From: an uncultured Verrucomicrobiales bacterium | GTDB lineage: Bacteria; Verrucomicrobiota; Verrucomicrobiia; Verrucomicrobiales; Akkermansiaceae | Length of the DNA stretch: 64,000 nucleotides | Direction: 5' to 3' | Assembly (NCBI GenBank): GCA_949373085.1 | Contig: CASICJ010000047.1 | Location: forward strand, 1 to 64,000 | In this document: positions 4,027 through 51,349 of the stretch, in pieces | Position numbering within the stretch: position 1 is the first letter of the stretch | Layout: each line of letters begins with the position of its first letter | Program-made: the position numbers and the translations under genes | Notes under the pieces: generated by a model | Told to the model about the DNA's origin: nothing | Seen by the model: the letters and a program-made list of their open reading frames with translations, nothing else | Database searches by the model: none

Positions 4027-6831
4027 ATGAAGCAGGTTCTCTCAATTTCATTCAGCATCTCGTGCCTGATGGGCTCGGAAGTTCTTGCAGCTTCTCTTGA
4101 TGAAAAAGCGGTTGAACTATTGGAATCCTATTGTTTCGACTGCCATGATACCGCCTCGCAAAAGGGGAATTTGAATATGGAGGAGCTCCTCAAAAAGGAC
4201 AGTTTCGATGGTGCCTTAATGTTCGAAAATCTGCTCACAGGAAAAATGCCTCCCGCTGACAAAGATCAGCCGGATGCAGAGGAGAAGCGAGAGCTGTTGC
4301 AATGGCTCGCTGGTCGGCAGGGAAAGCATGTGGGGAAATCCTTCCGCCGAATCAGCCGGAATGAATTCGTGTATTCGCTCAATGATCTCTTGGGGACGGA
4401 TTTGGATCTCGCTGGCCAGATCCCGGAAGACCGGGGAACGAACAACTTCGATTCAAACCGGAAGATTCAGTTGAGTCGTGAGATGCTGGAATCTTACTTT
4501 TCGGTGGCGGATGAGATCTTGAACCAGGCCTTTCCGGACGAAGGGTTTCCGTTGGAGAAAAGTTGGGTCACGAACAAGGTTCGGGATAGTCACGAGACCT
4601 ATCGAATTTATCACCGTCCTTATCAGGAGGGCACTTTGTTTTCTTGGACTCGCGCCAATAATGGAAATAGCTATTCCTTCTTTTATGACAACTTTGAGCC
4701 GCCAGTGGCAGGTTGGTATGAGCTCACCTTCGAGGCTGCAAAAGTGGCGGACTTTGAAGATGACATGACTCTGCAAGTGTATGCCGGAAAGTATTACTAC
4801 GCCGACGACCGGCCCCAGTTACAGCGACTCCTCGGGGTGATTTCACTCGAAAACCGTGAAGTTGAAACGCGGACTATTCGCGCCTACCTCAATCCCGGTG
4901 AAAACGTTTCGGTCCATTGTTTTTCCCGGCACAATTTTAGGCAGCAAAACCCACAGCAGGGAATTTACATCAAGCAGTTGAAGGCCCGTGGTCCAGTGGT
5001 GGATTCCTGGCCGCCTTCCTCTTACAAGAAAATCTTCGAGGGATTGAAAATTGAGGCCGAGCAACGGAAGGTTCAAAAGGCTTCTGGGTTTCAGACTGAG
5101 CTCAAGAGAATTGGTGGCGCGCTTACGGTGAGCAGTTTTCAGAAGGGGATGGAGAAAGAGAAGATACAGGATGGTTCTAACATGACCTTCTGGCACACGC
5201 GCTTTTCCCCAACAGTGGCAACCCCGCCACACTATGTTATTTTTGAAAACCCAAATAGAGCGGTCATTGAAGGGCTTTCGTTCGCCACTTGGTCGGGTGG
5301 GAATGGCAACGGCTTGGTCAAGGCATACGAGATTTACTTTTCCGACGATGGAAGAACCTGGGGAGAAAAGGTGATGGGCGGTGCGCTTGACGTTAGGCTG
5401 GCGAATGAACAGCCGATTGTCTTTCCGAAGGAAACGAGAAGCCGCTTTATCAAGTTTAAGGTGACGGACTCTGTTCAGCTGGATGGCAAGTCGATCGCTT
5501 CGATTGGGAAGCTCGATGTCATCGCCGATGTTCCAGAGCAGCGCAAGGTTTCCAAGGTTACGGTTGCGAGCGATTCTCCTGATGACTTGGAAAATGTTTT
5601 GCGGACTTTTGCAGAGAAGGCGTTATCTTCGAAACTCAGTAATGAAAAATTGGCTCCCTACTTTAGGGCGGGTCTCGCGAATTTGAAGAAGAGTGGTGAT
5701 TTCGTGCAGGCGACCAAGTTGGGACTTAAGGCGATCTTATGTTCACCAGGTTTTTTGATGGCTCCCGGTGAGCATGCCAACCCGTCTTATGCCAGAGCCG
5801 CCGACCTGGCGCGAAGTCTCTGGCTCTCGGTTCCCGACGACGAACTCCTCCTCCTTGCGGCTGGGGACAAACTGGAAGGAGAAGTCTTGCAAATACAGAT
5901 CCAGCGTATGCTGAAAGAGCAGCGCAGTGAGCGCATGATTCGCTCCTTCAGTGACCAATGGTTGAATCTGCAAGGACTCAGTAAAGTGACGCCTTCCTTG
6001 AAGCTTTACCCGCTTTACGACGACCTTCTGAATCATTATTTCCCGGTGGAAACTCGCAAATACCTCCAGCATTTGGTTCAAGAAAATCTTCCAGCCCGAA
6101 ATCTCATCGACTCGGATTTCACCTTTCTCAATCAACGTCTCGCCTGGCACTACGGGATCGAAGGAGTGACGGGGCAAAACATACGCAAAGTAAACTTTTC
6201 TGACGAAGTGCCCCGTGGAGGACTTTTGACAATGGGGAGTGTTTTAAAAGTGACAACGGATGGTTTCGATACCTCGCCCATTTTACGTGGAGCTTGGATC
6301 TCAAAAAATATTGTGGGCACGCCGCTCTCGCCACCTCCTGAGAGTGTTCCAGCCTTGGAACCGGAACACGGAGAAGCGGAGACGCTTAAGGAGCAGATCG
6401 ATCAGCACAAAAGCAATAAGACCTGTTACGCCTGCCACAAGAGCATCGACCCCTATGGCTTTGCGCTGGAGAGCTTTGATGCGAGTGGGGAATGGCGCGA
6501 GAGATATAAGATCAAGCAGGCGCACAAGAGCACCTTCCAATACAGCCCAAAAGGTTACTTCAAGGTTGGGGTCCCGGTAGATGCCTCGGGAGAAATAGGC
6601 GCAGATAAGTTTAAAAATATCTTCGGACTGAAGAAGGTTTTGCTCTCCAACGAGCGGAAGATTGCTTATAACTTTGCCAAGAAATTCTTTGAGTATGCCC
6701 GGGGCGGAAAACCGAAACTTGAGCAGCGTCTTGACCTATGGGATTTTCTGGGCGAGGCGGAGGAAAACGTCCGCTTGAAAAATATTGTCACCGAGGTGTT
6801 AATCAGCGCCCTCAACGAAGCGAAGGAATGA
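4027..6831 (+). CDS. DUF1592/DUF1588/DUF1585 multidomain cytochrome c with F5/8C-like insert
   Basis: This 934-residue exported protein has a signal peptide (about residues 1-22) and a PSCyt1-like heme domain with CFDCH at 36-40 followed by GKMPP. A DUF1587 segment follows (RRISRNEFVYSLNDLLGTDLDL). A discoidin (F5/8 type C)-like beta-sandwich occupies roughly residues 360-500. DUF1595/DUF1592 (DDELLLLAAGDKL and SFSDQWLNLQGL), DUF1588 with a second heme motif CYACHKSIDPYGFALESFD (CYACH at 800-804) and a DUF1585 tail complete it. This is a Planctomycetota/Verrucomicrobiota family of unknown reaction. Two CxxCH sites argue for periplasmic or surface electron transfer; the insert suggests carbohydrate binding (inference). 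It overlaps the DUF1552 partner gene by ATGA. Confidence 0.88.
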   Translation: MKQVLSISFSISCLMGSEVLAASLDEKAVELLESYCFDCHDTASQKGNLNMEELLKKDSFDGALMFENLLTGKMPPADKDQPDAEEKRELLQWLAGRQGKHVGKSFRRISRNEFVYSLNDLLGTDLDLAGQIPEDRGTNNFDSNRKIQLSREMLESYFSVADEILNQAFPDEGFPLEKSWVTNKVRDSHETYRIYHRPYQEGTLFSWTRANNGNSYSFFYDNFEPPVAGWYELTFEAAKVADFEDDMTLQVYAGKYYYADDRPQLQRLLGVISLENREVETRTIRAYLNPGENVSVHCFSRHNFRQQNPQQGIYIKQLKARGPVVDSWPPSSYKKIFEGLKIEAEQRKVQKASGFQTELKRIGGALTVSSFQKGMEKEKIQDGSNMTFWHTRFSPTVATPPHYVIFENPNRAVIEGLSFATWSGGNGNGLVKAYEIYFSDDGRTWGEKVMGGALDVRLANEQPIVFPKETRSRFIKFKVTDSVQLDGKSIASIGKLDVIADVPEQRKVSKVTVASDSPDDLENVLRTFAEKALSSKLSNEKLAPYFRAGLANLKKSGDFVQATKLGLKAILCSPGFLMAPGEHANPSYARAADLARSLWLSVPDDELLLLAAGDKLEGEVLQIQIQRMLKEQRSERMIRSFSDQWLNLQGLSKVTPSLKLYPLYDDLLNHYFPVETRKYLQHLVQENLPARNLIDSDFTFLNQRLAWHYGIEGVTGQNIRKVNFSDEVPRGGLLTMGSVLKVTTDGFDTSPILRGAWISKNIVGTPLSPPPESVPALEPEHGEAETLKEQIDQHKSNKTCYACHKSIDPYGFALESFDASGEWRERYKIKQAHKSTFQYSPKGYFKVGVPVDASGEIGADKFKNIFGLKKVLLSNERKIAYNFAKKFFEYARGGKPKLEQRLDLWDFLGEAEENVRLKNIVTEVLISALNEAKE

Positions 6832-8054: not shown

Positions 8055-8111
8055 ATCCGATTAATAATAGCTTCGGCAAACTCGTTAAAAAGAGTCTCAA
8101 TCTCAAGTATC

Positions 8112-9128: not shown

Positions 9129-9139
9129 AAAGACCAAGC

Positions 9140-10636
9140 TTAGGTAAGGATATCGCTGATCACTTTTCCGTCGTTGGTTGGTCCAATGAGGCGTTGGTCG
9201 AGTCCCTGATACGGAAAGCTGAAGCGATGCGGATCAAGTCCGAGCTGATGCAGGACCGTGGATTGTAAATCACGGATGCCCACTTTGTCTTCCGCGATGT
9301 AGTAACCAATGTCGTCGGTCGAGCCGTAAGCACCTGGCTTGACCCCTGCTCCCGCCATCCACATCGTGAAGGCGTGCGGGTGGTGGTCGCGGCCGTAGAA
9401 TCCTTTTTTTAATTCGTTGCGCACGTTGTTCTGCATCATCGGGGTGCGTCCAAACTCGCCGCCCCAGACGATGAGCGTCTCATCGAACAGGCCACGCTGT
9501 TTCAGGTCATTGATGAGGCCTGCGATGGCCTTATCGATTTGCTGACATTTGATCGGCAAAGTCTCATCGATTGATTCGCCCAGCGACGAACCGTGGTGAT
9601 CCCAACCCCAATCGTAAAGCTGCACGAAGCGCACTCCGTTTTCGACCAGTCGCCGTGCCAGGAGGCAGTTGTTGGCGAAGGTTGGGTCGTCACCTTTATA
9701 AATCTGGCGCGGGTCGGCGGCGGTTTCGGCGGCGGAGACGTGGCCCGGTTGCGCACCGTAAAGATCCAAGATGTGCTTTGGTTCCTTACTGATGTCCATC
9801 ACCTCTGGGACCGACATTTGCATGCGGAAAGCCAACTCATACTGCGAGATGCGGGTGAGAGTCTCTGGGTCGCCGATTTGTTGGTGTTGGATTTCGTTTA
9901 AGTCGTTGAGCGCATCGAGCGTCTTACGACGCATTTGACGGCTCATGCCCTTCGGGTCCGAGAGATATAGGATCGGATCGCCGCCATCAGTGCGGCACTG
10001 CACACCCTGATAAACGGTCGGCAGGAATCCCGAACCCCACAAGGATTTGCCGGCACTTGGCGTTTTACCGCCTGAGGCGAGCACCACAAAACCGGGCAGG
10101 TTCTGGTTCTCGCTGCCGAGTCCGTAGGTCACCCATGATCCCATCGACGGTGAACCAAGCAGTTGGCTTCCGGTTTGCAAAAGAAGCTGCGCGGGCGAGT
10201 GGTTAAACTGCTCGGTGTGCATCGAGCGGATGACGCAGACATCATCGATCACGGAACTGAGACCGGGAAGCAGACTGCTGATCCACTGGCCACTCTCGCC
10301 ATGCTGGGTGTAGTCGAATACGGGCCCCATCATCTTTGGTTTCCCCTTGATGAAGGCAAAACGTTTTCCTTCGAGATATTCGTCCGGGCAGACCTTGCCG
10401 TGATACTTGGTCAGGGCCGGTTTGTTCTCAAACAAATCAAGCTGTGATGGCGAGCCCGCCATGTGCAGGTAGATGATCGACTTGGCCTTGGCCGGGATGC
10501 GGAAACGCGGTTTCTTGGCTGCCGCTGTCTCAGCCGACAATAACTGCTGCAGGGCGATCGCACCGAAGCCGAGACCGGATTGTTTAAAGAAGTGGCGCCG
10601 CGTATTTGCGCGAAGTTGTTCGAGTTTGAGGTTCAT
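9140..10636 (-). CDS. DUF1501 family Tat-exported protein
   Basis: This 498-residue protein has a twin-arginine signal (TRRHFFKQSGLGFGAIALQQLL). DUF1501 proteins have an alkaline phosphatase/sulfatase-like fold and unknown substrates. Conserved blocks are present: [18 protein letters not shown] and GRDHHPHAFTMWMAG. The usual N-terminal block [10 protein letters not shown] is altered to GSPSQLDLFE, losing a Gly and the His that its three paralogues in this window keep. The start overlaps the stop of the upstream DUF1549/1553 cytochrome by ATGA, so the two are probably translated together. The coding sequence looks GC-rich beside the iron operon and the 39-47 kb genes. Confidence 0.9.
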   Translation of the reverse strand: MNLKLEQLRANTRRHFFKQSGLGFGAIALQQLLSAETAAAKKPRFRIPAKAKSIIYLHMAGSPSQLDLFENKPALTKYHGKVCPDEYLEGKRFAFIKGKPKMMGPVFDYTQHGESGQWISSLLPGLSSVIDDVCVIRSMHTEQFNHSPAQLLLQTGSQLLGSPSMGSWVTYGLGSENQNLPGFVVLASGGKTPSAGKSLWGSGFLPTVYQGVQCRTDGGDPILYLSDPKGMSRQMRRKTLDALNDLNEIQHQQIGDPETLTRISQYELAFRMQMSVPEVMDISKEPKHILDLYGAQPGHVSAAETAADPRQIYKGDDPTFANNCLLARRLVENGVRFVQLYDWGWDHHGSSLGESIDETLPIKCQQIDKAIAGLINDLKQRGLFDETLIVWGGEFGRTPMMQNNVRNELKKGFYGRDHHPHAFTMWMAGAGVKPGAYGSTDDIGYYIAEDKVGIRDLQSTVLHQLGLDPHRFSFPYQGLDQRLIGPTNDGKVISDILT

Positions 10637-13491
10637 GGTTTCATCAAAGTTTCATCGAGGTTGAGAATGACGCTCGCCACGCACACCCGGGCCGCGTCGC
10701 CTTCTTTGAGTCCGGCAGACTGAAGCAGTGCCTGAGCCTCTTCCAGTTTCGATGCGAAGTCGGTTTTCATCGTCTCATAGAGCGCATTCAGTCGTTTCGC
10801 TTCCTCCGCTGTGGGCGGACGTGTTAGGACAAGCCGGAAACCGTGTTCAATGTCGGTCATTCGCTTTGCCAAGGCACCGGCTGCTTCGATGAAGGCCGTG
10901 TCGTTTAAGGTTACGAGTGCTTGCAAGGGCGTGTTGGTGCGAACCCGCCGGATCTGGCAAACTTCGCCGCTGCCGGCATCAAAAGAGAGCATTGCCGGAT
11001 GTGGGCTAGTACGCTTGGCGTAGGTGTAAAGCCCGCGCCGGTAGCGGTCTGGCCCGGTCGCGTTTTTCCATCGTTCCCCGCTGTAGGTTGACTTCCAAAC
11101 GCCGTCCGGTTGGGGAGGCATCACTGATGGACCACCGAGTTTACGCGTCAGCAGGCCGGACGCGGCGAGTGATTGATCACGCACCATTTCGGCTGAGAGA
11201 CGAAAGCGCGACCCTCGGCTGAGCAGCCGGTTGCGCGGGTCGGCCGCAAGTTTTTCGGGCGTCACCACTGCGCTTTGCCGGTAGGTCCCGGACATCACGA
11301 TAGTCTTCAGTAGCTGTTTGAGTGACCAATCCTTCTCGCGATAATCGACCGCCAGCCAATCGAGTAATTCGGGATGCGACGGCACCGCTCCCTGCGAGCC
11401 GAAATCCTCCTCGGTCTCGACAATTCCGATACCGAAAAGCCGCGCCCAGACCCGGTTCACCATGACTCGCGCGGTGAGTGGGTTCTCCGGTTGCATCAGC
11501 CACTGCGCAACGCCCAATCTATTCGCTGGCGACTCGCCGGGCAACTTGCCGAAGACCTCTGGAACGCCCGCTTCGACCGTGTCGCCTTGATCGAGAAAAT
11601 TACCGCGATTGTGAATACGAGTTTTGCGACGCTTCTCTCCAGCCAGCTCTCGCATGATCGCGGTCTTGGAAATCCTCGATTGCACACCCTTGAGCGCTTC
11701 CTGTATAGTCTCCAATTGCGCCTTCAGTTCGCGCGTCGGTCCGTAGACTTGCTCGGAAAATATTTTTTCCAGACCCGCGACCGGATCGAGGCTCGCCGTC
11801 AACCAATTCACCGGATGCGTGCTTGCTGACAAACGGAACGATTCAAAAATCAGCCCGAGCCCGTATTCCATGTCCAAAGTCAGGCGTAGTTGCCCGCCGG
11901 AGATTGGTTTCGCGAAATCGAACACTGCAACGTGCGGCTCGGCGGCCTTGGGGGAGAATGCCCAGCCTGCTTTCCGGTTGCCATCAATCGCTCTAGCAAC
12001 TTCCCAGCCGCGTTGCGAAAAATCAGCGCGCGGGTTGGCAAGTTTGAGCTTCACGGGTTTGGCACCCGGGGCGAGAAACTCTGCTGTGAGCTCACGCAAG
12101 GCCACGTTCTTGTCTGGCCACTTCCCGCCCGCTTTTTTGGGTAGCGCGTCGATGCGCAGGGCGGTTAAGGTTTCCCCCGCTGGCAGATTAAGGGTCAGGG
12201 TCCAGGTGTCTTTCTCTGGATTTTCCGAGCGGACCTTGAGCGTTCCGTCTTTCGCTTGAGTCAGCTTTACACCCTGTTTGGACTGCATTCCAGCCAGCTT
12301 TAACGGTTGCCAGGGCGGCGTCTTTTTAAAGGCCGCTTTCCATTTGGAAAAAGCCTCTGCGTACCCTGCTGGCTTTGCCTTTAGCTTTTGATTGAGCGCC
12401 GTAATTTCTGCTTCGAACTTCGCGGCTTGTTCGCTTTGCTGGGCCGTGGGAGTTGGCATGACGGGCGCAGGCCGGTCGGCGTCTTCGGTTTGGTTGAAGA
12501 AGCTGTAGAAAGAGTAGTAATCTTTGATACTAATCGGGTCATACTTGTGCGTGTGACACTTGGCACAGCCCATAGTCAGCCCCATCCAAACCTGCATTGT
12601 GGTGTCCGCTCGGTCCTTGACGGCAGCGACGCGAAATTCCTCATCGTCTGTGCCTCCCTCGTCGTTTTCCATCGTGTTGCGGTGGAAAGCGGTTGCCAGA
12701 ATCTGTTCGGTCGTAGGCTTGGGCAAGAGGTCGCCAGCGAGTTGTTCGATCGTGAACTGGTCGTATGGCAGATCGCGGTTGAGCGCCTCGATCACCCAAT
12801 CGCGGTAGCGCCACATGTCGCGGTGGCGATCTTTCTCGTAACCTTTCGTGTCCGCAAAGCGTGCCAAGTCGAGCCACATCCGTGCCCAATGTTCACCGAA
12901 ATCCTCAGCCCCCAACAAGCGATCGACCACGGCTTCGAAATCGCCCGACTTCACAAAGGCATCCGCGTTCTCAATTGTCGGAGGCAAACCAGTGAGGTCA
13001 AGCGACACCCGGCGGATCAATGCGTAACGATTTGCCTCGTCTGCAGGTGTAAGCCCGGTTGCCTTTTTCAGTTGCTCACCGACAAAATGATCGATCGGAT
13101 GCCTGTCCTCCGGCACGGTAGCCTTGACGGGTGGTTCAAAGGACCAGTGCGTATCGTATTCCCCCCCTGAAGCGACCCAGGCCCGCAGCAGTTTTTTCTG
13201 AGTTTCGGTGAGAACATGCCCCGTGTCCTCTGGCGGCATGAGATCATCTACATCGTCGGTCTCAATCCGATAGACCAACTCGCTATCCTCCACCGGACCG
13301 AGCATTTTCCTAGCCCCCTTTGCGGTATCAAGCCGCAGATCACCTTCGCGGGCCTCCTTGTCCGGGCCATGACAGGCGAAGCAGTTCGCCGAGAGGATCG
13401 GCCGGATATCCCGATTGAAATCCACCGGCGGTACACCACTAGCGATCGAGACCAGCAAGGTGGAAGTGATGACAGCCAGAAGTGTTTTCAT
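10633..13491 (-). CDS. PSCyt1-DUF1549-DUF1553 cytochrome with F5/8C-like insert
   Basis: The chosen ATG at 13491 starts directly with a signal peptide (MKTLLAVITSTLLVSIASG), giving 952 residues; ATGs at 13509 and 13566 are in frame. Domains in order: PSCyt1 with [19 protein letters not shown] (CFACH 37-41) and MPPEDT; DUF1549 with LTGLPPT, a WLDLARFADTKGYEKD block and a second heme motif CAKCH (309-313) followed by KYDPIS; a beta-sandwich of discoidin/galactose-binding type around residues 420-590; DUF1553 with [35 protein letters not shown] and [19 protein letters not shown]. Role unknown; two CxxCH sites suggest periplasmic electron transfer. It is translationally coupled to the DUF1501 gene. 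Confidence 0.9.
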   Translation of the reverse strand: MKTLLAVITSTLLVSIASGVPPVDFNRDIRPILSANCFACHGPDKEAREGDLRLDTAKGARKMLGPVEDSELVYRIETDDVDDLMPPEDTGHVLTETQKKLLRAWVASGGEYDTHWSFEPPVKATVPEDRHPIDHFVGEQLKKATGLTPADEANRYALIRRVSLDLTGLPPTIENADAFVKSGDFEAVVDRLLGAEDFGEHWARMWLDLARFADTKGYEKDRHRDMWRYRDWVIEALNRDLPYDQFTIEQLAGDLLPKPTTEQILATAFHRNTMENDEGGTDDEEFRVAAVKDRADTTMQVWMGLTMGCAKCHTHKYDPISIKDYYSFYSFFNQTEDADRPAPVMPTPTAQQSEQAAKFEAEITALNQKLKAKPAGYAEAFSKWKAAFKKTPPWQPLKLAGMQSKQGVKLTQAKDGTLKVRSENPEKDTWTLTLNLPAGETLTALRIDALPKKAGGKWPDKNVALRELTAEFLAPGAKPVKLKLANPRADFSQRGWEVARAIDGNRKAGWAFSPKAAEPHVAVFDFAKPISGGQLRLTLDMEYGLGLIFESFRLSASTHPVNWLTASLDPVAGLEKIFSEQVYGPTRELKAQLETIQEALKGVQSRISKTAIMRELAGEKRRKTRIHNRGNFLDQGDTVEAGVPEVFGKLPGESPANRLGVAQWLMQPENPLTARVMVNRVWARLFGIGIVETEEDFGSQGAVPSHPELLDWLAVDYREKDWSLKQLLKTIVMSGTYRQSAVVTPEKLAADPRNRLLSRGSRFRLSAEMVRDQSLAASGLLTRKLGGPSVMPPQPDGVWKSTYSGERWKNATGPDRYRRGLYTYAKRTSPHPAMLSFDAGSGEVCQIRRVRTNTPLQALVTLNDTAFIEAAGALAKRMTDIEHGFRLVLTRPPTAEEAKRLNALYETMKTDFASKLEEAQALLQSAGLKEGDAARVCVASVILNLDETLMKP

Positions 13492-13686
13492 GATGGTGGA
13501 TACTGGCATAAGAATAAAAGGTCGTCTGGTTATTTTCTTGGATAAACAGTGTATAGAAATGCCCAAGAACTTCCGAGGGCCAATTAACCATGTTGCTCTT
13601 CTTGCCCTCTGACATCATAGTCTTAGCACTCTGTGAGCGGCAAAATTCTGGAAAGCTCACATAAAAATTACCGTAGTAGATACGTT

Positions 13687-16668: not shown

Positions 16669-16704
16669 GATGAATGGCCTAACCCTCCATTAGGAAACCA
16701 ATTG

Positions 16705-21122: not shown

Positions 21123-21180
21123 GGCGAGAATCACCTGATTTAAATGCTACCGCCAGGAATTTGCTTTTTGCGGAAAGGCT

Positions 21181-33575: not shown

Positions 33576-33648
33576 TCCGTATCGTGATTTCTTTTTCGCC
33601 CGATCTTTCTGCCTCGACCCGGGGAAGAGGCGTCCCTATTCTTCTACG

Positions 33649-37550: not shown

Positions 37551-37555
37551 TTTTG

Positions 37556-37829
37556 GCTCGAATGGAGCGTAGGTCTCGGGATGCTGAAGAAATTTTACGC
37601 CCCAATCAGGACTCACCTTAATTGACAAATTCTCGAGGGCAGGACCTTTCCGGGGAATGATAACATGGGAACCTCCGTGGCAATTGGCCCAGCTAAGTTC
37701 AGAAAAAAGAACTGCGCCCCCTTGTGCCGAACGAGCCCGCGAATAAAAACGCCCGTAGCCGACGACATGAGGTTCGGCATGCGCTCCTCCCAAGATGAGT
37801 AGCAATAAAGCGGATAGAAAATTTCGTAT
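37556..37829 (-). pseudogene. Decayed remnant of a small cytochrome c-like gene
   Basis: Reading minus from 37829, the frame starts ATA-CGA-AAT and encodes a good signal peptide (IRNFLSALLLLILGGAHA). It continues as HVVGYGRFYSRARSAQGGAVLF and SELSWANCHGGSHV, then PRKGPALENLS and a KFLQHPETYAPF stretch, which resembles the start of PVC-type heme domains. Three defects point to decay. The expected ATG is ATA (a TTG at 37805 remains). The heme motif CxxCH reads WANCH, with TGG where a Cys codon is expected. Homology stops about ten bases before the end of the convergent DUF1552 gene. It lies directly after the isomerase gene, whose stop overlaps the lost start, so it was probably the last gene of that operon. 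Confidence 0.6.
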
Positions 37830-39309: not shown

Positions 39310-39429
39310 TTTGGTATGTTAACTTCCTAGGTTGAGACGTCTATCCATTTACAGCCTAGAAAAACGTATCGCTTTGATGATAGTTTTCCATCTGACTACC
39401 GGGAAAATTAGTTCGATCAATACTGACAT

Positions 39430-40170: not shown

Positions 40171-40174
40171 TCGA

Positions 40175-40195
40175 CCTACCCATTATAGGGGTAGG
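40175..40195 (+). other. Intergenic hairpin between two esterase genes
   Basis: CCTACCC and GGGTAGG form a perfect 7-base stem with a 7-base loop, just after the stop of the first esterase gene. No T tract follows, so it is a weak terminator candidate or an mRNA-stabilising or processing structure. Confidence 0.35.
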
Positions 40196-40267
40196 GAATG
40201 GGATTGAAGATTTGAAAGCTCTTGCTTCAGGGACTCGTTCGGAGCCCCCGGAGTTAATCCAATATTT

Positions 40268-41323: not shown

Positions 41324-41336
41324 ATTAGCTCAGTAG

Positions 41337-41370
41337 AAGGGTGGATCCGTGAGTTTACGGACCCGCCCTT
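41337..41370 (+). terminator. Terminator-like hairpin after SASA esterase
   Basis: A 14-base stem (AAGGGTGGATCCGT with ACGGACCCGCCCTT, two G-U pairs) with a 6-base loop lies 14 bases after the stop of the esterase gene. It is followed by TACTTTG, so the T tract is poor. It makes an upstream start of the next gene at 41349, inside the hairpin, unlikely. Confidence 0.65.
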
Positions 41371-41555
41371 TACTTTGTACAAAAGCTTCAGTTAACGACT
41401 TTCTATTCAGGAGCGGCGTTCTCGGGTCAAAGGGGTCCTGTCACATCTTTGAACCTAGCAACTGCGGTGGTTTAGCGATGGAAGAGATCCCAGATCAGAT
41501 CTGGCCAAATCTACCGGTGAAAGATAGGCTGCTCTCCCTATCTCTTCGATTGGTT

Positions 41556-44500
41556 ATGGTGCTTTTAAAGATTATCAACCCCGCCTCATTAGCTAAGCGC
41601 CTCCTTTTTCTAAGTGGTCTTGGGAGTTGTCTTTTGGTTGGGCTTTTTTCCCTGTCAGCTGATTCTCAGCTTGCAGAGCAAAACTTGTTAGCAGGTGCTC
41701 ACGTCCAGGATATCACACCTCCTTTTGATTCTCTTTTGATCAATGGAGGGTTTGTTGAAAGAAGACGGGGGAAGATGCAGCCAGGTGATCTCAAGGCGCG
41801 TTGTTTTGTTTTACAGCGTGGTGAAGTCAGCATCGCGGTGGCAGTGGTCGATAGCTGTATGATTCCAAGGGATGTTTGTGATCGGACAAAAGCTTTGGCA
41901 TCACAAAAGACTGGAATTCCGATTGATCGGATCGTGATTGCAGCGACCCATACCCACTCTGCTCCGAGTACGATGGATTATTGTTTGGGAACAATGGCAG
42001 ACCCGGCTTACACCGAATTCTTGCCTAGTAAAATCGCGGAGGGGATTGTGAAGGCCTATGGGAAAATCGAGCCAGCACAAATTGGTCACAAGCAAGTGAA
42101 AGCGACTGGCTACAATTACAATCGGCGTTGGATCACGCGGCCAGACCAAATGCAAAGAGATCCCTTTGGTGATAAAACGGTCCGAGCTATGATGCATCCT
42201 GGATTTCGAAATCCAAAATACGTCGGGCCTTCCGGCCCGGTCGATGATGAATTGTCTGTCTTATCGATTCAGGCTTTGAATGGTGATCCGATTGGCGTTC
42301 TCGCGAATTTTTCGATGCACTACCATGGCGGTGGGGGACGCCCCGCGGATTACTTTGGTCTTTTTTCTGATCGGCTTGCTAAGCAGTTGGCTGTTGGAGG
42401 GCATGAGCCCGTGTGTGCCATGACTCAGGGCACGAGCGGAGACCTGCATTTGCGAGATTATGAAGGCGAACGAACTAATTCAGATATCTCGATCTATACC
42501 GATGGGCTGGTTGAGATTGCCAAAGGGGCAGTTAAAAAGGTTTGTTATGACCAAAGTCCCCTGCTCGGGATGGACCAGAAAGAGCTCACGCTTTCACGGC
42601 GATTGCCTGACGCGAAGCGTTTGGCTTGGGCTGATAAAATGCTTTCTGGAATGAAAGGGGAAAGGCCCAAAAATCGCCCTGAAGTTTACGCGGAACAGGC
42701 TCGATACATACATAAAAACCCCACGGAAAACCTTGTCTTGCAAACGCTACGGATTGGAAGTTTGGGGATTACGACAATTCCCAATGAAGTTTACGCCATC
42801 ACGGGCCTTAAGCTCAAAGCTTGGAGCCCATTCCCCTCGACCTTCAATATTGAACTGGCGAACGGGGCGGCGGGATACATTCCGCCTCCTGAACAACACT
42901 CTTTGGGAGGTTACACCACTTGGCCGGCTAGGACCGCCGGGTTAGAGGTGGAGGCCGAGCCAAAGATCGTTGAGACTTTGTTAAGCTCTTTTGAATCTCT
43001 TGCAGGAAAACCCCGCCGCCCATCTCTGAGGCATCAAGGAGATTATGTAAAATGGATCATGGCGCAAAAACCTTTGGCCTACTTTCAGTGTGAGGATTTT
43101 GGGGGGGGCACGTTGGACGATGCCTCTGGCCAAGATCGTAGCGGCCATGTTGAAGGGATGGTGGCTTATCATCTTCCGGGGCCTGAGAGTAAGGCTATGT
43201 CTGAACAAAACCCAAATAACGCTCTTCAGCTGGCAGGTGGACGTATTTCAGTCACGGTTCCAAAGGCACGAACATTATCATTTTGGTTTTGGAATGGCAT
43301 GAGTAATACGGTGCGAGATCATACCGGTGATCTTGTGCAGCATGGGGTGTCTCGCTTTCTGCGGATTGGAGGCAAGGCGGATGGGGAGTCTAGTGGTTCT
43401 TTGATTTTACAAGATGGTGAAAAACGTTTTTTTGGTAAGACAAAGTTAGCCTTAAAAGCGTGGCATCACGTCGTAATGTCCCAAGAGGAGGAAGAGGTGA
43501 AGATTTATCTTGATGGGCACATCATACCAGAAGTGAGTGCCCCTCTTACCCCGTCTAATTCTGAGCAATGGCACTTGGGGGGAGAGTTGCCAGTCGAAGG
43601 GCGTCTTGATGAAGTCGCTTGGTTTAAGGGCGCCTTTAGCCAAAAAGAGGCGGCCCGAAATTTTTCTGCTTCAAGGATGACTCAACCCGCGCGCCCTGCT
43701 CCACCCCGTCCGAAGTATGATCGCGGTGCTATGGCTGGTTATCAAAAAGCGGTTTTGGCTTCTCAGCCATCAGTCTGGCTCGACCACGGAAATGAAGCTT
43801 CTAAGCGGCGCGTTCAGAAAAAAATTGAAGGGATCGGAGACGTCTACACTGTAGAATTTTGGGTTCGCAACCAACTCCCAAATCAAATCCGCCCGGTTAC
43901 TGCCTACTTGTTTTCGCGAGGAGTGGATGGCATGAAGGAAGCGGAAGGAGACCATCTTGGTATTGGGGGATCACACCTTGCAGCGGGAAAATTAATTGTT
44001 TTTCAGGGGAACCGGAGCGGGGGGCTGTTGACGGGAGTGACTGAACTTGAACCAAATAGCTGGCATCATCTCGCCATGATTCGTGAGGGAGAGCGGGTGC
44101 AAGTGTATTTGAATGGAAGATCTGAACCTGAAATCGATGGGATCCTTCCCCGCACTTATCCGGATGGGCATCCTGAGTTCTTTTGGGGAGGCCGAAGCGA
44201 TCGCTTTTCTATTCTTGAGGGGCGCCTCGATCACGTTGCTTTATATGATCGCGCTCTCTCTATTGCTGAGATTTCGGAGCATTACGAGGTAGTTAATTTG
44301 CTGCCAAGCGAAAAGAATTTAGAGGAAAGTAATTCCGGGGCTCTTTCGCCACAGGATGCTCTCTCAAGCATACATGTCCCTGAGGGCTATCGAATTGAGT
44401 TGGTGGCGAGTGAGCCGTTGATCAAAGATCCCGTCGCAATTGATTGGGGGGCTGATGGCAAATTATGGGTTGCGGAGATGGCAGATTATCCCTCTGGAGT

Positions 44501-47117
44501 TGATGGCAAGCCTGGAGGGCGTGTACGATTTTTGGAGGATCTTGATGGGGATGGAAAATACGAAAAATCGACTCTTTTTCTTAAAGGGCTCAATTACCCT
44601 GCGGGAATCATGTCTTGGCGCAGTGGAGTAATTGTGGCGGCTGCACCTGATTTGATCTATGCGCAAGACACCACTGGTGACGGTAAGGCTGATCTTCAAG
44701 AAGTGCTCTATTCTGGATTCAAGCAGGGCAATCAACAGCTACGAGTCAATGGATTGAGTTGGGGTTTGGACAACTGGATTCATGGTGCCAACGGGAGTCA
44801 CCATCCTGGATATGCAAAAAATACCATGATCCATTCGTCGCGAGCAGGAAGCACTTTACCACTAGGTAGTATGGACTTTCGAATCCGTCCGGATGAGGGG
44901 ATGATGGAAGCTCTCTCCGGACCTTCTCAATTTGGCCGGGCGCGCGATGATTGGGGGAATTCGTTTGGGGTGCAGAATAGTTTCCCCCTTTGGCACTATG
45001 TTTTGGAGGAGCGCTATTTGACTAGGAACGTTAATTTTGCACCGCCTGAAATTCGTCGTCAGCTTCGCCCTCAAAACCCGCGAGTGTTTCCAGCGTCGTC
45101 CCTCCAGAAACGGTTTCACAGTTTCAATCAATCAGGGCGTTTCACGAGTGCTTGTTCGCCTATGATTTATCGGGATCGACTTTTGTTTGACGACGGGCAA
45201 GTGCATGCTTTGACCTGTGAGCCCTTTCATAACTTAGTGCAGCATGTCGTGTTGGATCGTGATGGTTACAGCTTCAAAGCCAAGCGAGCAGAAGAAGAAG
45301 GAGCCTTTGATTTTTTTGCTTCTGAGGACAGATGGTGTCGTCCGGTGATGGCCCGAACAGGGCCAGATGGTGCCGTGTGGGTAGTCGACATGTATCGATA
45401 TATGATTGAGCATTCTGACTGGTTGCCTGACGAGGGGAAAAGAGAAATGAAAGCGCATGAGCGCAAGGGGTCTGAGTGCGGAAGGATTTATCGTATTTTG
45501 CCCAAGGATGAGCCGCCCAGGAAAATCCCAGATCTAGCGAAGGTTTCTCCCAAAAATCTTGTGAGGTATTTGGCAAGTCCAAATGGGATTGTGCGGGATC
45601 TTGCTCATCGCCTTCTTGTCGAAGTAAAAGCGGTTTCGGTGACCGGTCAGGTTCTGAAGATGGCCTTAAAACATCCGAGTCCTAGAGCTCGGTTGCACGC
45701 TCTGTGTGTGCTCGATGGAATCAATCAATTGACTCTGGAGATCCTTTATTCCGCGTGCCAGGATCCCCATCCTCAACTTCGTCGTCATGCCGTTCGTCTT
45801 GCGGAAAATCGCTGGGATGAAGAGCCTGAATTAGTTGTAGCAGTCTCGGAGATGATCGATGATGTTGATTTAGGGGTGCGCTTGCAGGTGGCATGCTCAT
45901 TAGGCAACTCAAAGAGACCTGAAGCGGGCCATGCTCTGGCCGCCTTGGCGGTAGATAATGCCGCGGATCCCATGATTAGGGCGGCAGTGATGAGCTCGCC
46001 CTCGCATCATTTTATTGCTCTAGCCGAGCGAGCTCTTGATCAAGGGGTGTTGGTTGACGAGCTCATTAAAGTGGCTGGGGCTAAAAACCATACCGCCTTA
46101 GAAGCACTGGTTACTCGACTCTCTCAGCCTGGCAAAGAAGGCTTCCACGCGGTGCAATTTCAATCGTTGAGCCATTGGGCTGATCTTCATCCTCAAGCTT
46201 CAGTAAGGCTCAGTCATGTGATTGCGGAGGCACGCAAAATCGTCCGCATGCCAGGTGGAGTGGGCCCGCTTAAAATCGCCGCAATTAGCTTATTGGGAAG
46301 AGAGCAAAAACAATTTAAGAGCGACCGAGATCTCTTAGGGAAATTACTTATTTTATCGGAATCGAGCGAAATGAAATTTGCGGTGATTGAAGCTCTTGCG
46401 AGAATGGGTGGGCCGGAGATACCACGCCTTTTGATTAGTTCTTGGAGTAGATATTTTCCTCGAGAGAGAGCAAAAATTATGGACACCCTTCTCCAGCGAA
46501 AAGAGTGGGCGATGGCAATGCTTAAAGCGATAGGACAAGGTCAAATTTCGCCAAAAACAGTCGATGTTTCGAGGCGCCAGATTCTGCGGACTCATACGGA
46601 TGAAGGGATTAAAAAGATGGCAGAGGAGTTGTTTCCCTCTCATGGAGGACTGACACGAGCGCGGCAGCTCGAGAAATTCCGATCTGCTTTGGAACTTAAA
46701 GCGAATCCCAAAGATGGGCGAGCGGTGTTCAATCGAGCCTGTACGCATTGTCACCTTTCGGTGAAGGGTCTGCCAATAAATGGGCCAGATTTGCGCTCCA
46801 TTACTGAGCGTAGTAAGAAAGGCCTCTTCACCTCAATTTTGAATCCTAACGAATCAGTGGACCCTTCTTATTTTGGTTATTCAGTGACTCTTAAAGATGG
46901 CCAAATGCTTTTTGGAAGGGTTCTCGCAGAAAAGGAGAACAGTCTCACTTTAAGACTTCTTGATGGGAGTGATCGTCAGATTCTTCGAAAGAGAATTAAA
47001 GGTTTAGACGCAAGTGGGCGTTCGCTCATGCCAGATGGCCTTGAGCTTGGTATGACCCATCAAAATCTCGCTGACCTAATTGGATTTTTACAGATTTTTG
47101 GGCGCGAAGGAGAATGA
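41556..47117 (+). CDS. Giant fusion: ceramidase-like hydrolase, two LamG, PVC dehydrogenase, HEAT, heme cytochrome
   Basis: The chosen ATG at 41556 gives 1853 residues with a signal peptide/anchor (about 15-40); ATG 41478 and GTG 41349 are in frame but less likely. Domains: a neutral/alkaline ceramidase-like domain (about 45-490) with ATHTHSAPST, MHYHGGGG and QGTSGDLHLRD as probable zinc and nucleophile regions; LamG-like 1 (about 510-700); LamG-like 2 (about 740-910); a sorbosone-dehydrogenase-like propeller (about 934-1320, VPEGYRIELVASEPLIKDPVAIDWG); HEAT-like repeats (about 1330-1700); and a heme domain with CTHCH at 1729-1733. One chain thus combines a hydrolase, sugar-binding modules, an oxidoreductase and an electron carrier. 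Ceramidase-like domains in PVC bacteria may hydrolyse other amides or esters. It converges on a DUF1501 gene. Confidence 0.83.
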   Translation: MVLLKIINPASLAKRLLFLSGLGSCLLVGLFSLSADSQLAEQNLLAGAHVQDITPPFDSLLINGGFVERRRGKMQPGDLKARCFVLQRGEVSIAVAVVDSCMIPRDVCDRTKALASQKTGIPIDRIVIAATHTHSAPSTMDYCLGTMADPAYTEFLPSKIAEGIVKAYGKIEPAQIGHKQVKATGYNYNRRWITRPDQMQRDPFGDKTVRAMMHPGFRNPKYVGPSGPVDDELSVLSIQALNGDPIGVLANFSMHYHGGGGRPADYFGLFSDRLAKQLAVGGHEPVCAMTQGTSGDLHLRDYEGERTNSDISIYTDGLVEIAKGAVKKVCYDQSPLLGMDQKELTLSRRLPDAKRLAWADKMLSGMKGERPKNRPEVYAEQARYIHKNPTENLVLQTLRIGSLGITTIPNEVYAITGLKLKAWSPFPSTFNIELANGAAGYIPPPEQHSLGGYTTWPARTAGLEVEAEPKIVETLLSSFESLAGKPRRPSLRHQGDYVKWIMAQKPLAYFQCEDFGGGTLDDASGQDRSGHVEGMVAYHLPGPESKAMSEQNPNNALQLAGGRISVTVPKARTLSFWFWNGMSNTVRDHTGDLVQHGVSRFLRIGGKADGESSGSLILQDGEKRFFGKTKLALKAWHHVVMSQEEEEVKIYLDGHIIPEVSAPLTPSNSEQWHLGGELPVEGRLDEVAWFKGAFSQKEAARNFSASRMTQPARPAPPRPKYDRGAMAGYQKAVLASQPSVWLDHGNEASKRRVQKKIEGIGDVYTVEFWVRNQLPNQIRPVTAYLFSRGVDGMKEAEGDHLGIGGSHLAAGKLIVFQGNRSGGLLTGVTELEPNSWHHLAMIREGERVQVYLNGRSEPEIDGILPRTYPDGHPEFFWGGRSDRFSILEGRLDHVALYDRALSIAEISEHYEVVNLLPSEKNLEESNSGALSPQDALSSIHVPEGYRIELVASEPLIKDPVAIDWGADGKLWVAEMADYPSGVDGKPGGRVRFLEDLDGDGKYEKSTLFLKGLNYPAGIMSWRSGVIVAAAPDLIYAQDTTGDGKADLQEVLYSGFKQGNQQLRVNGLSWGLDNWIHGANGSHHPGYAKNTMIHSSRAGSTLPLGSMDFRIRPDEGMMEALSGPSQFGRARDDWGNSFGVQNSFPLWHYVLEERYLTRNVNFAPPEIRRQLRPQNPRVFPASSLQKRFHSFNQSGRFTSACSPMIYRDRLLFDDGQVHALTCEPFHNLVQHVVLDRDGYSFKAKRAEEEGAFDFFASEDRWCRPVMARTGPDGAVWVVDMYRYMIEHSDWLPDEGKREMKAHERKGSECGRIYRILPKDEPPRKIPDLAKVSPKNLVRYLASPNGIVRDLAHRLLVEVKAVSVTGQVLKMALKHPSPRARLHALCVLDGINQLTLEILYSACQDPHPQLRRHAVRLAENRWDEEPELVVAVSEMIDDVDLGVRLQVACSLGNSKRPEAGHALAALAVDNAADPMIRAAVMSSPSHHFIALAERALDQGVLVDELIKVAGAKNHTALEALVTRLSQPGKEGFHAVQFQSLSHWADLHPQASVRLSHVIAEARKIVRMPGGVGPLKIAAISLLGREQKQFKSDRDLLGKLLILSESSEMKFAVIEALARMGGPEIPRLLISSWSRYFPRERAKIMDTLLQRKEWAMAMLKAIGQGQISPKTVDVSRRQILRTHTDEGIKKMAEELFPSHGGLTRARQLEKFRSALELKANPKDGRAVFNRACTHCHLSVKGLPINGPDLRSITERSKKGLFTSILNPNESVDPSYFGYSVTLKDGQMLFGRVLAEKENSLTLRLLDGSDRQILRKRIKGLDASGRSLMPDGLELGMTHQNLADLIGFLQIFGREGE

Positions 47118-47163
47118 ACATCCCCCGAATGGATTTGGGATTAGCGATGGATATCTGGGGGAG

Positions 47164-48555
47164 CTAGGCGATGATGTCGTTTTCCACGTTTCCGGCAACG
47201 TCGGTGAGACGGAAGTCACGGCCAGCGTAGTTGTAAGTGAGCTGTTCGTGATCAAGGCCGAGGAGATGGAGCATAGTAGCGTGGAGGTCATGCATGTGAA
47301 GTCGCCCGCTCACGGCGGTGTCACCCACTTCATCGGTCGCCCCGTGGGCGTGACCAGGTTTAGTGCCCCCTCCGGCTAGCCAAGTTGTAAAGCCGCGCGG
47401 GTTGTGGTCGCGGCCGTCCTTACCTTGTGAGAAGGGCGTGCGTCCAAATTCTCCGCCCCACCAGACGAGTGTGTCTTCCAGAAGTCCGCGTTGTTTGAGA
47501 TCTTTTAGGAGTCCGGCCACGGGTTGGTCGGTTGCGTGAGCGTGGACTTTGTGCTTGGGCATATTGGAATGTTGGTCCCAGCGTGGATTAACTGATTCGT
47601 CTGAGTAGTTGACTTGGATAAAACGGACTCCGCGCTCTGCGAGACGGCGGGCCATGAGGCATTGTCTGCCATAGTCGTCGGTCGCCTTTTCGCCAATCCC
47701 ATACATGGATTTAGTGGCCTCGGATTCTTCCGCGAGATCGAGAATGTCGGGGGCATTCATTTGCATGCGGAAGGCAAGGTCGAAGGAGTCGATGGCAGCA
47801 TCAATATTTTGATCGTTTTTGGTTTGCGCCTGCTGCCGATTTAGTTGTTGGAGGAAGTCGAACTGTTTCGACTGAGCGTTGAGGGGAAGATGTGGGTTTT
47901 TAAGGTTTCTGATGGTGGCTTTGGACGCGGGAAGTCCGGCTCGGCCAATGCAGGTGCCTTGGTGGACAGCTGGCAGAAAAGCATTGGAGTAGTTGCGCGG
48001 GCCGCCTTTGCTGGCAGAAGGCATAATGGTGACAAAGCCAGGGAGGTTCTCGTTTTCGGTTCCCAGACCATAGGTGACCCAGCTGCCCATGGAGGGGCGG
48101 ACTAGGTTGGTCGCTCCGGTATGAAGAAAGAGGGTGGAGGGGCCGTGCGCCACCCCTTCGGTATGCATGGAGTGTATAAAGCAGAGGTCATCGACATGCT
48201 TTGCGATATTGGGAAACAGAGAGCTGACCCATCGACCTGATTCGCCGTGTTGCTTGAAATCCCAGAGGGGTTTAAGAAGTTTACGTTGGGATTTTTTGCC
48301 GAAGGTGTTTTTGCGGACACCCACGAAATCGAAAGATTGTCCATCGCGTTTGATAAGCTCGGGCTTGTAGTCGAAGGAGTCGACATGGGAGGGCCCTCCA
48401 GCCATAAAAAGAAAGATGATCCTTTTAGCGCGAGCTGGTAGGACAGGAGATTTTGGAGATAGTGGGTTACTGAGACCTTGGCCTAGAAGCGAGGAAAGCG
48501 CGAGGGAACCGAATCCACAACTTGAGGATTTTAGCAGCTGGCGACGGTTGAGCAT
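47164..48555 (-). CDS. DUF1501 family exported protein, variant GRDHN motif
   Basis: The ATG at 48555 gives 463 residues starting [25 protein letters not shown], a twin-arginine-type signal. The long open frame upstream has no such signal. [28 protein letters not shown] and [12 protein letters not shown] are intact. The block that reads GRDHH in the three other DUF1501 proteins here is GRDHNP, so a possible metal-binding His is replaced by Asn. Unlike the other cytochrome/partner pairs, it does not overlap its cytochrome gene; the gap is 46 bases. It converges on the giant fusion gene. Confidence 0.9.
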
Positions 48556-48601
48556 AGGCTGAAGGTTTGGTTTTGTGACATGAACTATCCTGCTGTGTAC
48601 T

Positions 48602-51349
48602 TTAGTTGATGAAGCGAAAGTCGATGGTTGAGAAGAGAGCTTGAGTGAGTTGGGTCCAAGCTTCTGTTTTTTCGTCGGGGGGGAAGCTGGCGAGAAAGGT
48701 TTGAGTGGAGAGGCGTTCGCTTTCGGAGGGAGGACGGGAGAGGATGAGGAGGTAAGTATCTTCGACGGTTCCCGCCTCGGCGAGAAGTCTTTTGGCGGTG
48801 AGTTCTGACTGCTCACGTATAAAGGGGCTGTTCATGAGGAAGAGTGCCTGGGTGGGGAGGTTGGTGGTGGAACGCCGTCCCACCACAAGATTTGGATTTG
48901 GGGCGTCGAAGACCTCAAAAATAGGCAGCATGGAATTGCGAAACCATGGGACGTAGACACTACGTCGGTTAGAATCAAAACGGTAGTTGAGGTCATACTG
49001 TCCGGGATTGCGAATGGTTAGCCCGCCCTTGATCGGATCAAATTGTCCGCTGATATGAAGGGCGGTATCACGAATAGCCTCGGCTTCAAGGCGCTTACGA
49101 TGAGCTCTACCAAAGAAGCGGTTTTCAGGGTCGCTGTTGTCAGCAGTCTTCGAGGATAGCTGGTAGGTTCGACTCAGGACAATTTCTCGGATGAGTGATT
49201 TGATTGACCAATTATTTTTGGTGAACTGATTTGCAAGATGGTCGAGCAGTTTGGGGTGACTTGGCAATTCTCCCGTTTTCCCAAAGTTGTCGACGGTGCG
49301 CACGATGCCTTCACCAAGAAGATATTTCCAAATGCGATTGACCATGACTCGAGAAGTGAGCGGATGCTGAGGATCGGTGATCCACTCGGCGAGTTCAAGC
49401 CGGCCAGAATGGCCTTCCGGAATTTCGTGTGATATTCCGGCTTGGGAGGCGACGGTGAGGAAACCCCGTGGGACTTTGGCTCCTTTGTTACGGACTTGTC
49501 CGCGGATATGGACGTGCCCGTCTGCGATAGTTTCGGCTTCGGTCGCTGCCATGGTGACGGGCTGAAATTTCTTTAATTTAGCCGCGAGTGATTTGTGTCG
49601 GCTTTCCAGTTTCTTGAGATCGGTTTTAGGTTTTTGAGGGGTTATGGAATTTGGTGCGATGAAGGCTACGGCGTCAGCAATCACATGGGCGGTGGTTCTC
49701 TCGGTCGAGATGACGATGGTTGCCGGCTTTTCGCTTGAGAAGGGAAATGTTCCTACATTGGTAAATGTTTCCCAGATAGAAGCCGGCTTCGATTGGTCAA
49801 TGATGACAGTCGTTTTACCTTCGGCGTGGTGAATGGTGACAGGAACATTTTTGGCACGATTAGGGCCTGAACTGTAGGCGACCAAAACTTCATAGTCGCG
49901 AGTTTCCCCAAGAGTGGTGTTGAATTGGGCTCTTTTTTCTCCTTTGCCGGTATTTTCGTCGTGGAGGTAACTCTTGCCGACCCAAGGTTTCGTTGCGGTA
50001 GATTTCTTCCAATTTCCGGTTAGTTGCGCTTCGTTTGAATCAATGATGAGGCCAGGAAAGTTTTTTAGATCAGGTGAGCTTTTGAGGGTATTAATTTGTT
50101 TTTTGAGAGAGTCGATCGAACTCCGAAGTTGTGCGATCTCGGTGGGATTAGATATTTCGAGGGGGGTGGTAGCGAAGGAAGTGACTCCAGAGGCAGCGCT
50201 GCCTTTCCCCATGGAGCGTGTGCTTTGGAAGATCCCTGCAAGGGCGTAGTAGTCGGAAGTGGGAATAGGGTCAAATTTGTGATCATGGCAGCGGGCGCAG
50301 CCCAGAGTCATCCCGAGAAAGGTGCGACCGATGGTGTCGATTTGCTCATCGACGAATTCCATTTTGAGAAGTTCGTGATCTTGCAGTTCGTAGTTGAGTG
50401 CGCCAAGGACGAGGTAACCCGAGCCGATGAGTTGGGAGTTTCGTTGGATGGGCGACGAGTGGGGAAGGAGGTCTCCGGCGAGATGCTCGCGAACAAGTTG
50501 TTGGTAAGGCTTGTCCTTGTTGAATGAGTCGATGACGTAGTCGCGGAAACGCCAAGCATCGGGAAAGACGAGGGAGCGGCCGCCGCCAGATGATTCGGCG
50601 AAGCGGGTGATATCGAGCCAGTGGCGACCCCATCGTTCTCCAAATTCTGGACGAGCGAGGAGGTTAGCGACGATGGTTTGGAACGCTTGCGGGGACTTGT
50701 CTTGAAGAAAGGCTTTAAGTTCGTCAGGCGAAGGTGGTAGTCCGATAAGATCGAAGTAAACGCGACGGAGAAGAGAGGTTTTTGATGCGCTTCTCGTAGG
50801 AGTGATTTTTTGGGCTTCGAGTCGGGCGAGGATGAAGCGGTCGATATCGTTGTTTGGCCACCCGGTATCGCGGGGTTTTGGAATTGGGTGGGTAACGGGA
50901 GGTTGGAAGGACCAAAATTGGCGACCTTTATTGAGGTCGATTGGGGGAGTGGATTTTTTGATTTCACCTTCGCGAGGATCGGGAGCTCCCATCGCGATCC
51001 ATGATTTGAGGTGCTCGATTTCAGATTGCGGGAGCTGGTTCTTGGGGGGCATTTCTAGGTCACCAGTGGTGTGGGAAATAGCGTGGAAGAGAAGGGAGTC
51101 CTGGGGTTTTCCGGGGATAATAACTGGGCCGGAGTCGCCACCGGTTTGCCACCCGGTGCGGGAATCAAGGTAGAGGTTGCCTTTCAGCTTTTTTGCGTCG
51201 GCTGAGTGACATTCGTAACAGTGCTCCACAAAGAGAGGGCGAATGTGGGTTTCAAAATATTCAATACCCTCCGAATTGTTGGCACGGACCATCGAGCCAC
51301 TCGCGAGGAGGGCGAGAGTGATTTTCAGCTGACGTGAGTTTACAACCAT
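48602..51349 (-). CDS. PSCyt1-DUF1549-DUF1553 cytochrome with golvesin/xanthan-lyase-type insert
   Basis: This 915-residue exported protein has a signal peptide (about 1-23). PSCyt1 has CYECH at 44-48 and MPPKNQ. DUF1549 has [29 protein letters not shown] and [13 protein letters not shown] (Cys351 on). The insert at about residues 430-580 contains [35 protein letters not shown] and VIADAVAFI, the pattern of golvesin C-terminal/xanthan-lyase carbohydrate-binding-like domains. DUF1553 has [37 protein letters not shown] and [15 protein letters not shown]. Transcribed with the DUF1501 gene downstream. It diverges from the two-component system across 129 bases that contain a candidate regulator site. 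Confidence 0.88.

Follow-up and report, generated by a model that had tools for sequence, protein, structure and literature searches.

A fixed slot with changing contents in multidomain cytochromes of a Verrucomicrobial genome and its relatives, a probable docking site for carbohydrate-binding domains

The 64-kb stretch analyzed here (64,000 nucleotides; hereafter the window) is contig C47 of the draft genome of an uncultured marine Verrucomicrobiales bacterium (3.41 Mb, 81% complete) and encodes a set of multidomain cytochromes, four of which are built from the domains PSCyt1, PSCyt2 and PSD1 and carry a different insert each in a slot between PSCyt2 and PSD1. Across relatives this single site holds contents that are unrelated to one another, the contents change on supported branches of a tree of the flanking halves, helices beside the site are shared among types of content, and two of the window inserts are homologous to carbohydrate-binding modules (CBMs). 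It is probable that the slot is a docking site for carbohydrate-binding domains, and we infer that the inserts may target glycans; a re-addressable redox system is offered as a hypothesis. The cytochromes and their inserts are as follows.

4027..6831, forward strand: PSCyt3-class cytochrome, PSD3-slot-PSD5-PSD4-PSCyt3-PSD2 (Pfam)
5125..5469, forward strand: F5/8 type C insert of 4027, residues 367-481 (Pfam E 1e-10; slot alone 5e-12)
10633..13566, reverse strand: PSCyt1-PSCyt2-slot-PSD1 cytochrome, "10636" (Pfam; two CxxCH)
11812..12321, reverse strand: insert of 10636, residues about 416-585, a divergent F5/8C/CBM32-like sandwich, type GBL1
16702..19692, forward strand: PSCyt1-PSCyt2-slot-PSD1 cytochrome, "16702" (Pfam; two CxxCH)
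17812..17934, forward strand: entry helices ahead of the 16702 insert, residues 371-411 (AlphaFold model)
17974..18417, forward strand: "WIW" insert of 16702, residues 425-572, a CBM67/Pleurotus ostreatus lectin (POL) module
18439..18597, forward strand: exit helices behind the 16702 insert, residues 580-632, common to other insert types (AlphaFold model; cross-type hidden Markov model matches)
23691..26507, forward strand: PSCyt1-PSCyt2-slot-PSD1 cytochrome, "23691", with orthologues that have and lack the insert (Pfam)
24945..25418, forward strand: LamG/ConA-like insert of 23691, residues 419-576 (Pfam E 8e-13)
33568..36276, forward strand: PSCyt3-class cytochrome (Pfam)
34453..34893, forward strand: LamG insert of 33568, residues 296-442 (Pfam E 1e-24)
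48602..51349, reverse strand: PSCyt1-PSCyt2-slot-PSD1 cytochrome, "48605" (Pfam; two CxxCH)
49661..50041, reverse strand: Golvesin_C insert of 48605, residues 437-563 (Pfam E 1e-21; 6f2p 907-1037, E 1e-20)

A conserved frame with one insertion site

Pfam places PSCyt1, PSCyt2 and PSD1 in this order and above cut-off in 4/4 of the proteins 10636, 16702, 23691 and 48605, and each of the four has two CxxCH haem motifs. PSD3, PSD5, PSD4, PSCyt3 and PSD2 are all above cut-off in 33568; in 4027 this applies to PSD3, PSD4 and PSCyt3, with PSD5 and PSD2 below. The six cytochromes in two architectures named in a preliminary description of this stretch are therefore borne out as four PSCyt2-PSD1 and two PSCyt3-class proteins, although its start for one of the latter, 33649, lies inside the 33568 frame. 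The differing sandwiches it had placed in the six slots were likewise recovered, four above the Pfam cut-off, that of 10636 by the fold of its AlphaFold model and that of 16702 by profile and fold. Two more window cytochromes with such domains, at 13633-16668 and 41349-47117, extend the original six.

The slot was described as lying between DUF1549 (PSCyt2) and DUF1553 (PSD1), and this holds in the four window proteins and in 203/203 proteins of the comparative set, for which this order was a condition of entry. One exception is a divergent frame of 1708 residues on contig C38 of the window's genome, where the coordinates place a GBL1-type (10636-type) domain downstream of the PSD1 match. PSCyt3-class proteins have the slot between PSD3 and PSD5. 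The distance between these domains was measurable in 12 of the 18 proteins of the window's genome and is short in three (33-37 residues) and long in nine (173-230), so this class also has a variable slot. Eight of the nine long inserts were run against Pfam and none was above cut-off; the ninth is that of 33568.

Proteins of the PSCyt2 type are numerous in genomes of the Planctomycetes-Verrucomicrobia-Chlamydiae (PVC) group, with 37 PSCyt2 matches (and 18 PSCyt3 matches) in the 3.4 Mb available here. Their distribution is uneven within the family: genomes of the window's genus have 10-50 PSD1 matches each, in contrast to genus g5, where 13/13 genomes (2.2-3.3 Mb; including G009, G015 and G020) gave 0 matches to the PSCyt2 queries. 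Among the loci gathered, the closest named relatives of the 16702 protein come from marine Verrucomicrobial bins, at identities of 95%, 93% and 88%, labelled Verrucomicrobiaceae, Opitutaceae and Akkermansiaceae, respectively.

Slot contents across relatives

The stretches between PSCyt2 and PSD1 of 203 non-duplicate proteins were clustered by sequence. Apart from the window and the rest of its genome, the sources were five congeners, three further genomes of the same order and loci in named genomes from several phyla. Filtering removed 14 frames without PSD1, 18 that were incomplete or had another domain order, and 11 weak ones; identity reduced 221 proteins to 206, and the removal of three duplicates left 203. 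The tree includes 27 of the 37 PSCyt2 matches of the window's genome, the other ten being seven divergent proteins and three with PSD1 on another frame. Sampling is skewed to 16702, as 79 loci were found with six patterns taken from that protein, one of them inside its insert, and part of the fetched regions were the best by PSD1 score among the matches listed.

The slot types are LamG (n = 55), GBL1 (53), empty (31), WIW (24) and C3 (12), followed by two F5/8C types (8 and 4), a helical type read from sequence (5), C6 (4), golvesin (4), C12 (2) and C17 (1), where an empty slot is a core of <120 residues that is sometimes partly a helical hairpin. In the window's genome alone, five of the 27 chassis have an empty slot and the rest represent ten filled types. 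Representatives of LamG and both F5/8C types are above the Pfam cut-off, and the F5/8C signal of GBL1, including 10636, is weak or nil. Representatives of C3, C6, C12, C17 and WIW matched no Pfam family above cut-off, save one C6 slot, in which a beta-galactosidase-type sandwich is present in addition. Eleven GBL1 slots are longer than 340 residues; seven were run against Pfam, and five of these have an F5/8C or NedA-like match above cut-off. A second domain was seen in the long GBL1 slots of L122, L199, L145, L227, L249, L212 and L168, in L122 apparently inside the GBL1 sequence (by eye). Separately, a stand-alone golvesin-type stretch of the window's genome (L307, G000:C16:21732-22175) has two in-frame stops and is stop-free in G002 and G003.

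Chassis phylogeny and insert type

A tree was built on PSCyt2 and PSD1 only, and the fewest changes of slot state (insert type) were counted on it. One alternative to exchange is that the types are old subfamilies, each insert having been acquired once and having descended with its chassis, with apparent swaps due to tree error. In its favor, type is kept within orthologue groups, the WIW type is a single clade of 24, and the 203 proteins (12 states) require only 36 changes, where shuffled labels require a mean of 124 and at least 113 (200 shuffles). The possible minimum is 11, however, and the 172 filled proteins (11 states) require 21 changes against a minimum of 10 (shuffles: mean 97, least 88). 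Collapsing branches with Shimodaira-Hasegawa (SH) support below 0.95 leaves 28 changes for all proteins and 16 for filled slots; at the same threshold, PSCyt2 alone gives 19 and 13 and PSD1 alone 20 and 13. At SH 0.99 the counts fall to 17 and 12, and to 13 and 10 for each half alone, at or near the minimum. An extension to 229 proteins (35 frames ending before PSD1 and six weak ones removed, 26 of 33 kept after duplicates) gave 39 changes, 31 after collapse, with 20 and 15 for filled slots, 21 and 17 for empty versus filled, and 17 and 11 with all galactose-binding-like types merged. LamG and GBL1 alone are exchanged 8 times, or 4 after collapse, and each half of the chassis, taken alone, recovers 8/12 named clades of mixed insert type. 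Together with the LamG-bearing and empty orthologues of 23691 described below, these results already disfavor the old subfamilies, which are considered very unlikely; insert type does not track the chassis exactly.

Pairs of filled proteins with a chassis identity of at least 70% keep their type in 275/277 cases, compared to 398/600 at 60-70%; thus the contents hold steady on the time scale of a genus and change on that of a phylum. The plug-in exchange put forward in the preliminary description is supported by changes above the minimum on supported branches, by clades found with both halves, by shared helices and by LamG-free orthologues, but the frequent changes that it looked for are not supported. 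Close pairs with unlike contents include GBL1 and empty at 80% chassis identity, C3 and GBL1 at 70%, and GBL1 and LamG at 69%. Between chassis of 80-90% identity, the mean identity of same-type inserts is 59%. A donor search by insert identity did not trace any swap to a recent donor paralogue. The best hint comes from L126: its C3 insert is closest to two inserts from Planctomycetota (51-52%), and its chassis to two GBL1 carriers from Verrucomicrobia (70%).

The presence or absence of a domain can be followed most closely at 23691, where eight chassis form one clade with support of 100/100. LamG is carried by the window, G002, G003 and G005, and a LamG-free slot of 70-76 residues occurs in the congener G004 as well as in three genomes of another family (G017, G060 and G045). 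The G004 chassis is 81-84% identical to its LamG-bearing orthologues. A DUF1501 gene lies behind 7/7 loci looked at (the window and six others; G060 outside), and the products of the other six are 76-91% identical to that of the window (G004, 89.9%; G017, 79.1%; G045, 75.6%). A single LamG clade within the group is not rejected (approximately unbiased test, p = 0.156) but appears in 4% of bootstrap trees, and a single clade of the empty proteins is rejected (p = 0.021). The domain may have been gained once, lost twice, or gained in the genus with one loss. Natural pairs that differ in the insert, such as G002 and G004, offer clean comparisons. A sulfatase gene at 21301-23403 is divergent to 23691; the one next to the G002 orthologue is 94.6% identical to it and that of G005 87.8% (partial), and none was found in the G003 and G017 stretches searched; the G004 locus is cut by a contig end.

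Helices shared around the slot

Profiles for the seams were built from the C-terminal 75 residues of the core of each type, after a regular-expression search with three seeds had found little. The GBL1 tail profile matches 20/55 LamG, 8/24 WIW and 8/12 C3 cores and one empty slot, and no shuffled or reversed core. With five training types, cross-type recognition reached 55/202 cores on the C side and 35/202 on the N side (shuffled, 0), as opposed to 0/170 for the middle, a value that is partly built in because the types had been separated by sequence. These profiles did not find shared helices in the C6, helical, C17, C12, golvesin and both F5/8C slots. Profile-profile comparison of GBL1, C3 and WIW aligns the C-side helix alone, and both AlphaFold models (10636 and 16702) run from entry helices through the sandwich, an exit helix and short strands to PSD1. 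A sandwich-free slot in L065 (G006) retains the exit helix, like the scar of a lost domain.

Identity of the window inserts

The 4027 insert scores 42.2 bits against F5_F8_type_C (gathering score 28.2), the 23691 and 33568 inserts 49.3 and 87.6 bits against Laminin_G_3 (27.6), and the 48605 insert 77.6 bits against Golvesin_C (31.6). The 10636 insert is below the F5/8C gathering score (whole protein 13.3 bits, E 0.095; core 17.2 bits, E 0.006), and the AlphaFold model has a galactose-binding-like sandwich at the slot, in agreement with an F5/8C/CBM32-like fold. The 16702 insert has no Pfam match and corresponds over the whole module to CBM67 and POL, by profile and by fold (SaRha78A, 3w5m/3w5n; 6kbj, 6t1d). 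CBM67 is a family of calcium-dependent L-rhamnose binders. The Asp of the CBM67 Asp-Asn pair, which we take to be the calcium/sugar site, is invariant in 20/20 aligned WIW inserts; the second residue is Asn in most of them and Asp in 16702 and POL. The 48605 insert matches a Paenibacillus nanensis xanthan lyase of 1040 residues at positions 907-1037 (PXL; 6f2p, E 1e-20). The available text of PMC10881899 describes PXL with a terminal xanthan-binding module, and this stretch is probably that module. PDB profile searches gave nothing above chance level for the GBL1 and C3 inserts and no match at E<=0.1 for the 23691 LamG.

The preliminary description had allowed that the inserts might be spacers without a ligand. 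The 16702 and 48605 inserts are related to a described rhamnose-binding and a probable xanthan-binding module, respectively, and descent from such binding modules means that spacing is not their origin.

Partner genes and neighbors

The remaining features of the window are listed below.

6738..8054, forward strand: DUF1552 (HXXSHH) partner gene (Pfam)
9140..10636, reverse strand: DUF1501 partner gene (Pfam)
13633..16668, forward strand: neighboring PVC-type haem protein (NCBIfam TIGR02603; TIGR02604 below its cut-off)
13744..14163, forward strand: CBM67-like module of the 13633 protein, same family as the 16702 insert (profile E 2e-36)
19689..21122, forward strand: DUF1501 partner gene (Pfam)
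26450..27916, forward strand: DUF1501 partner gene (Pfam)
36273..37550, forward strand: DUF1552 partner gene (Pfam)
41349..47117, forward strand: PVC-type haem protein with two LamG stretches (Pfam, NCBIfam)
47164..48816, reverse strand: DUF1501 partner gene (Pfam)

By Pfam, a DUF1501 gene adjoins 4/4 PSCyt2-PSD1 genes of the window and a DUF1552 gene stands behind both PSCyt3-class genes. DUF1501 is downstream in 68/78 loci with at least 900 bases of downstream DNA, whatever the slot contains, and is kept with an empty slot; DUF1501 therefore does not track the insert.

The adjacent genes 13633-16668 and 16702-19692 encode different haem frames with one CBM67-like module in both; L080 has the same neighboring pair with CBM67-like modules, and the L079 locus is cut off. 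The 41349-47117 protein (1922 residues) combines a ceramidase-like match, the two LamG stretches, DUF7133/TIGR02604, HEAT and a TIGR02603 haem domain. A CotH kinase domain and three Lamin Tail Domain stretches occur at 28058-32476.

A probable docking role for the slot

In the reading proposed here, the PSCyt2-PSD1 proteins are exported c-type cytochromes with two haems, in which a fixed insertion site separates two conserved halves and helices of the frame carry a beta-sandwich between them. Over long times one sandwich gives way to an unrelated one, or a sandwich is gained or lost, and the two halves and the DUF1501 partner persist. Substrate docking would be the most likely use, the sandwich binding a sugar or glycan and keeping it near the haem frame, such that a different sandwich would give the frame a different substrate. 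Sugar or glycan binding, docking and any redox reaction of the substrate are predictions of this proposal, and the haem motifs suggest that the chassis could be the "redox machine" of the preliminary description.

Several observations weigh against a docking role. No domain is present in the slot of 31/203 proteins, one insert type seems wholly helical (by sequence), inserts diverge faster than the chassis, and among 62 loci of at least 6 kb, ten window-derived queries found no insert-specific neighbors and no insert-specific enzymes. A sulfatase lies near 3/19 WIW loci and 2/8 GBL1 loci. Empty and helical slots and fast insert evolution would also fit sandwiches that bind no glycan and act in protein docking or spacing (for DUF1501, assembly or reach), and F5/8C and related folds bind proteins too, F5/8C being placed under protein-protein interaction in the available text of He et al. 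2017 (PMC5615132). The constancy of DUF1501 and the homology of two inserts to CBM67 and xanthan lyase argue against this explanation, which is regarded as unlikely.

It is also possible, though on balance doubtful, that the insert is part of the active unit and determines which soluble sugar is oxidized by the cytochrome in the periplasm, and does not address the protein to an outside polymer. The accessible text of He et al. 2017 (PMC5615132) predicts PSCyt proteins to be periplasmic or cytoplasmic, and a periplasmic location would suit this possibility, as would the same CBM67-like module on the adjacent TIGR02603-type haem protein. Conversely, the chassis has no known catalytic activity, and no PDB chain matched a PSCyt2 or PSD1 stretch at E<=1. 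The separate structure searches covered almost solely the inserts.

For the docking role, slot homologues with defined ligands (CBM67, rhamnose; POL, the galactose family and rhamnose; PXL, xanthan) supply concrete ligands to try. A broader and rather more speculative extension is that the slot could work as a general socket into which a cytochrome takes binding domains, as the frame helices accept unrelated sandwiches and one genome holds ten types plus empty slots. The result would be a repertoire of haem proteins that each dock to a glycan of their own and might attack polysaccharides by redox chemistry and not by hydrolysis.

Comparison with known systems

The proteins with PSCyt1-3 and PSD1-5 reported from freshwater Verrucomicrobia by He et al. 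2017 (PMC5615132) are alike in their domains, and the available text notes partner gene families, several CBM families (LamG, Bac_rhamnosid_N, NPCBM, CBM6 and PA14) and protein-protein interaction domains that include F5/8C, and suggests a carbohydrate role. They differ in that the main text, as far as available, has no fixed slot with shared helices, chassis-tree swap count, or CBM67 or golvesin insert. The available part of PMC11495043 merely lists PSCyt1 among cytochrome domains. No swap analysis of these cytochromes was found in the literature searched, which was mostly without subscription papers.

Glycoside hydrolases combine a constant catalytic part with exchangeable CBMs (CBM shuffling). 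The cytochromes resemble this arrangement, except that their module is lodged between helices within the frame and that the part held constant is a haem protein with no known catalytic activity. The 16702 insert resembles the CBM67 of the Streptomyces avermitilis alpha-L-rhamnosidase SaRha78A and POL over the whole module, whereas its host is a cytochrome and not a hydrolase or free lectin, and 16702 has Asp-Asp in place of the CBM67 Asp-Asn pair that is present in most relatives. Similarly, the 48605 insert is like the terminal domain of PXL (6f2p) and Golvesin_C, in a different host protein. The parts are ordinary and partly in print; what is new is the evidence for one insertion site with shared seams, repeated content changes on supported branches, a close case of presence and absence, and the identity of the WIW insert.
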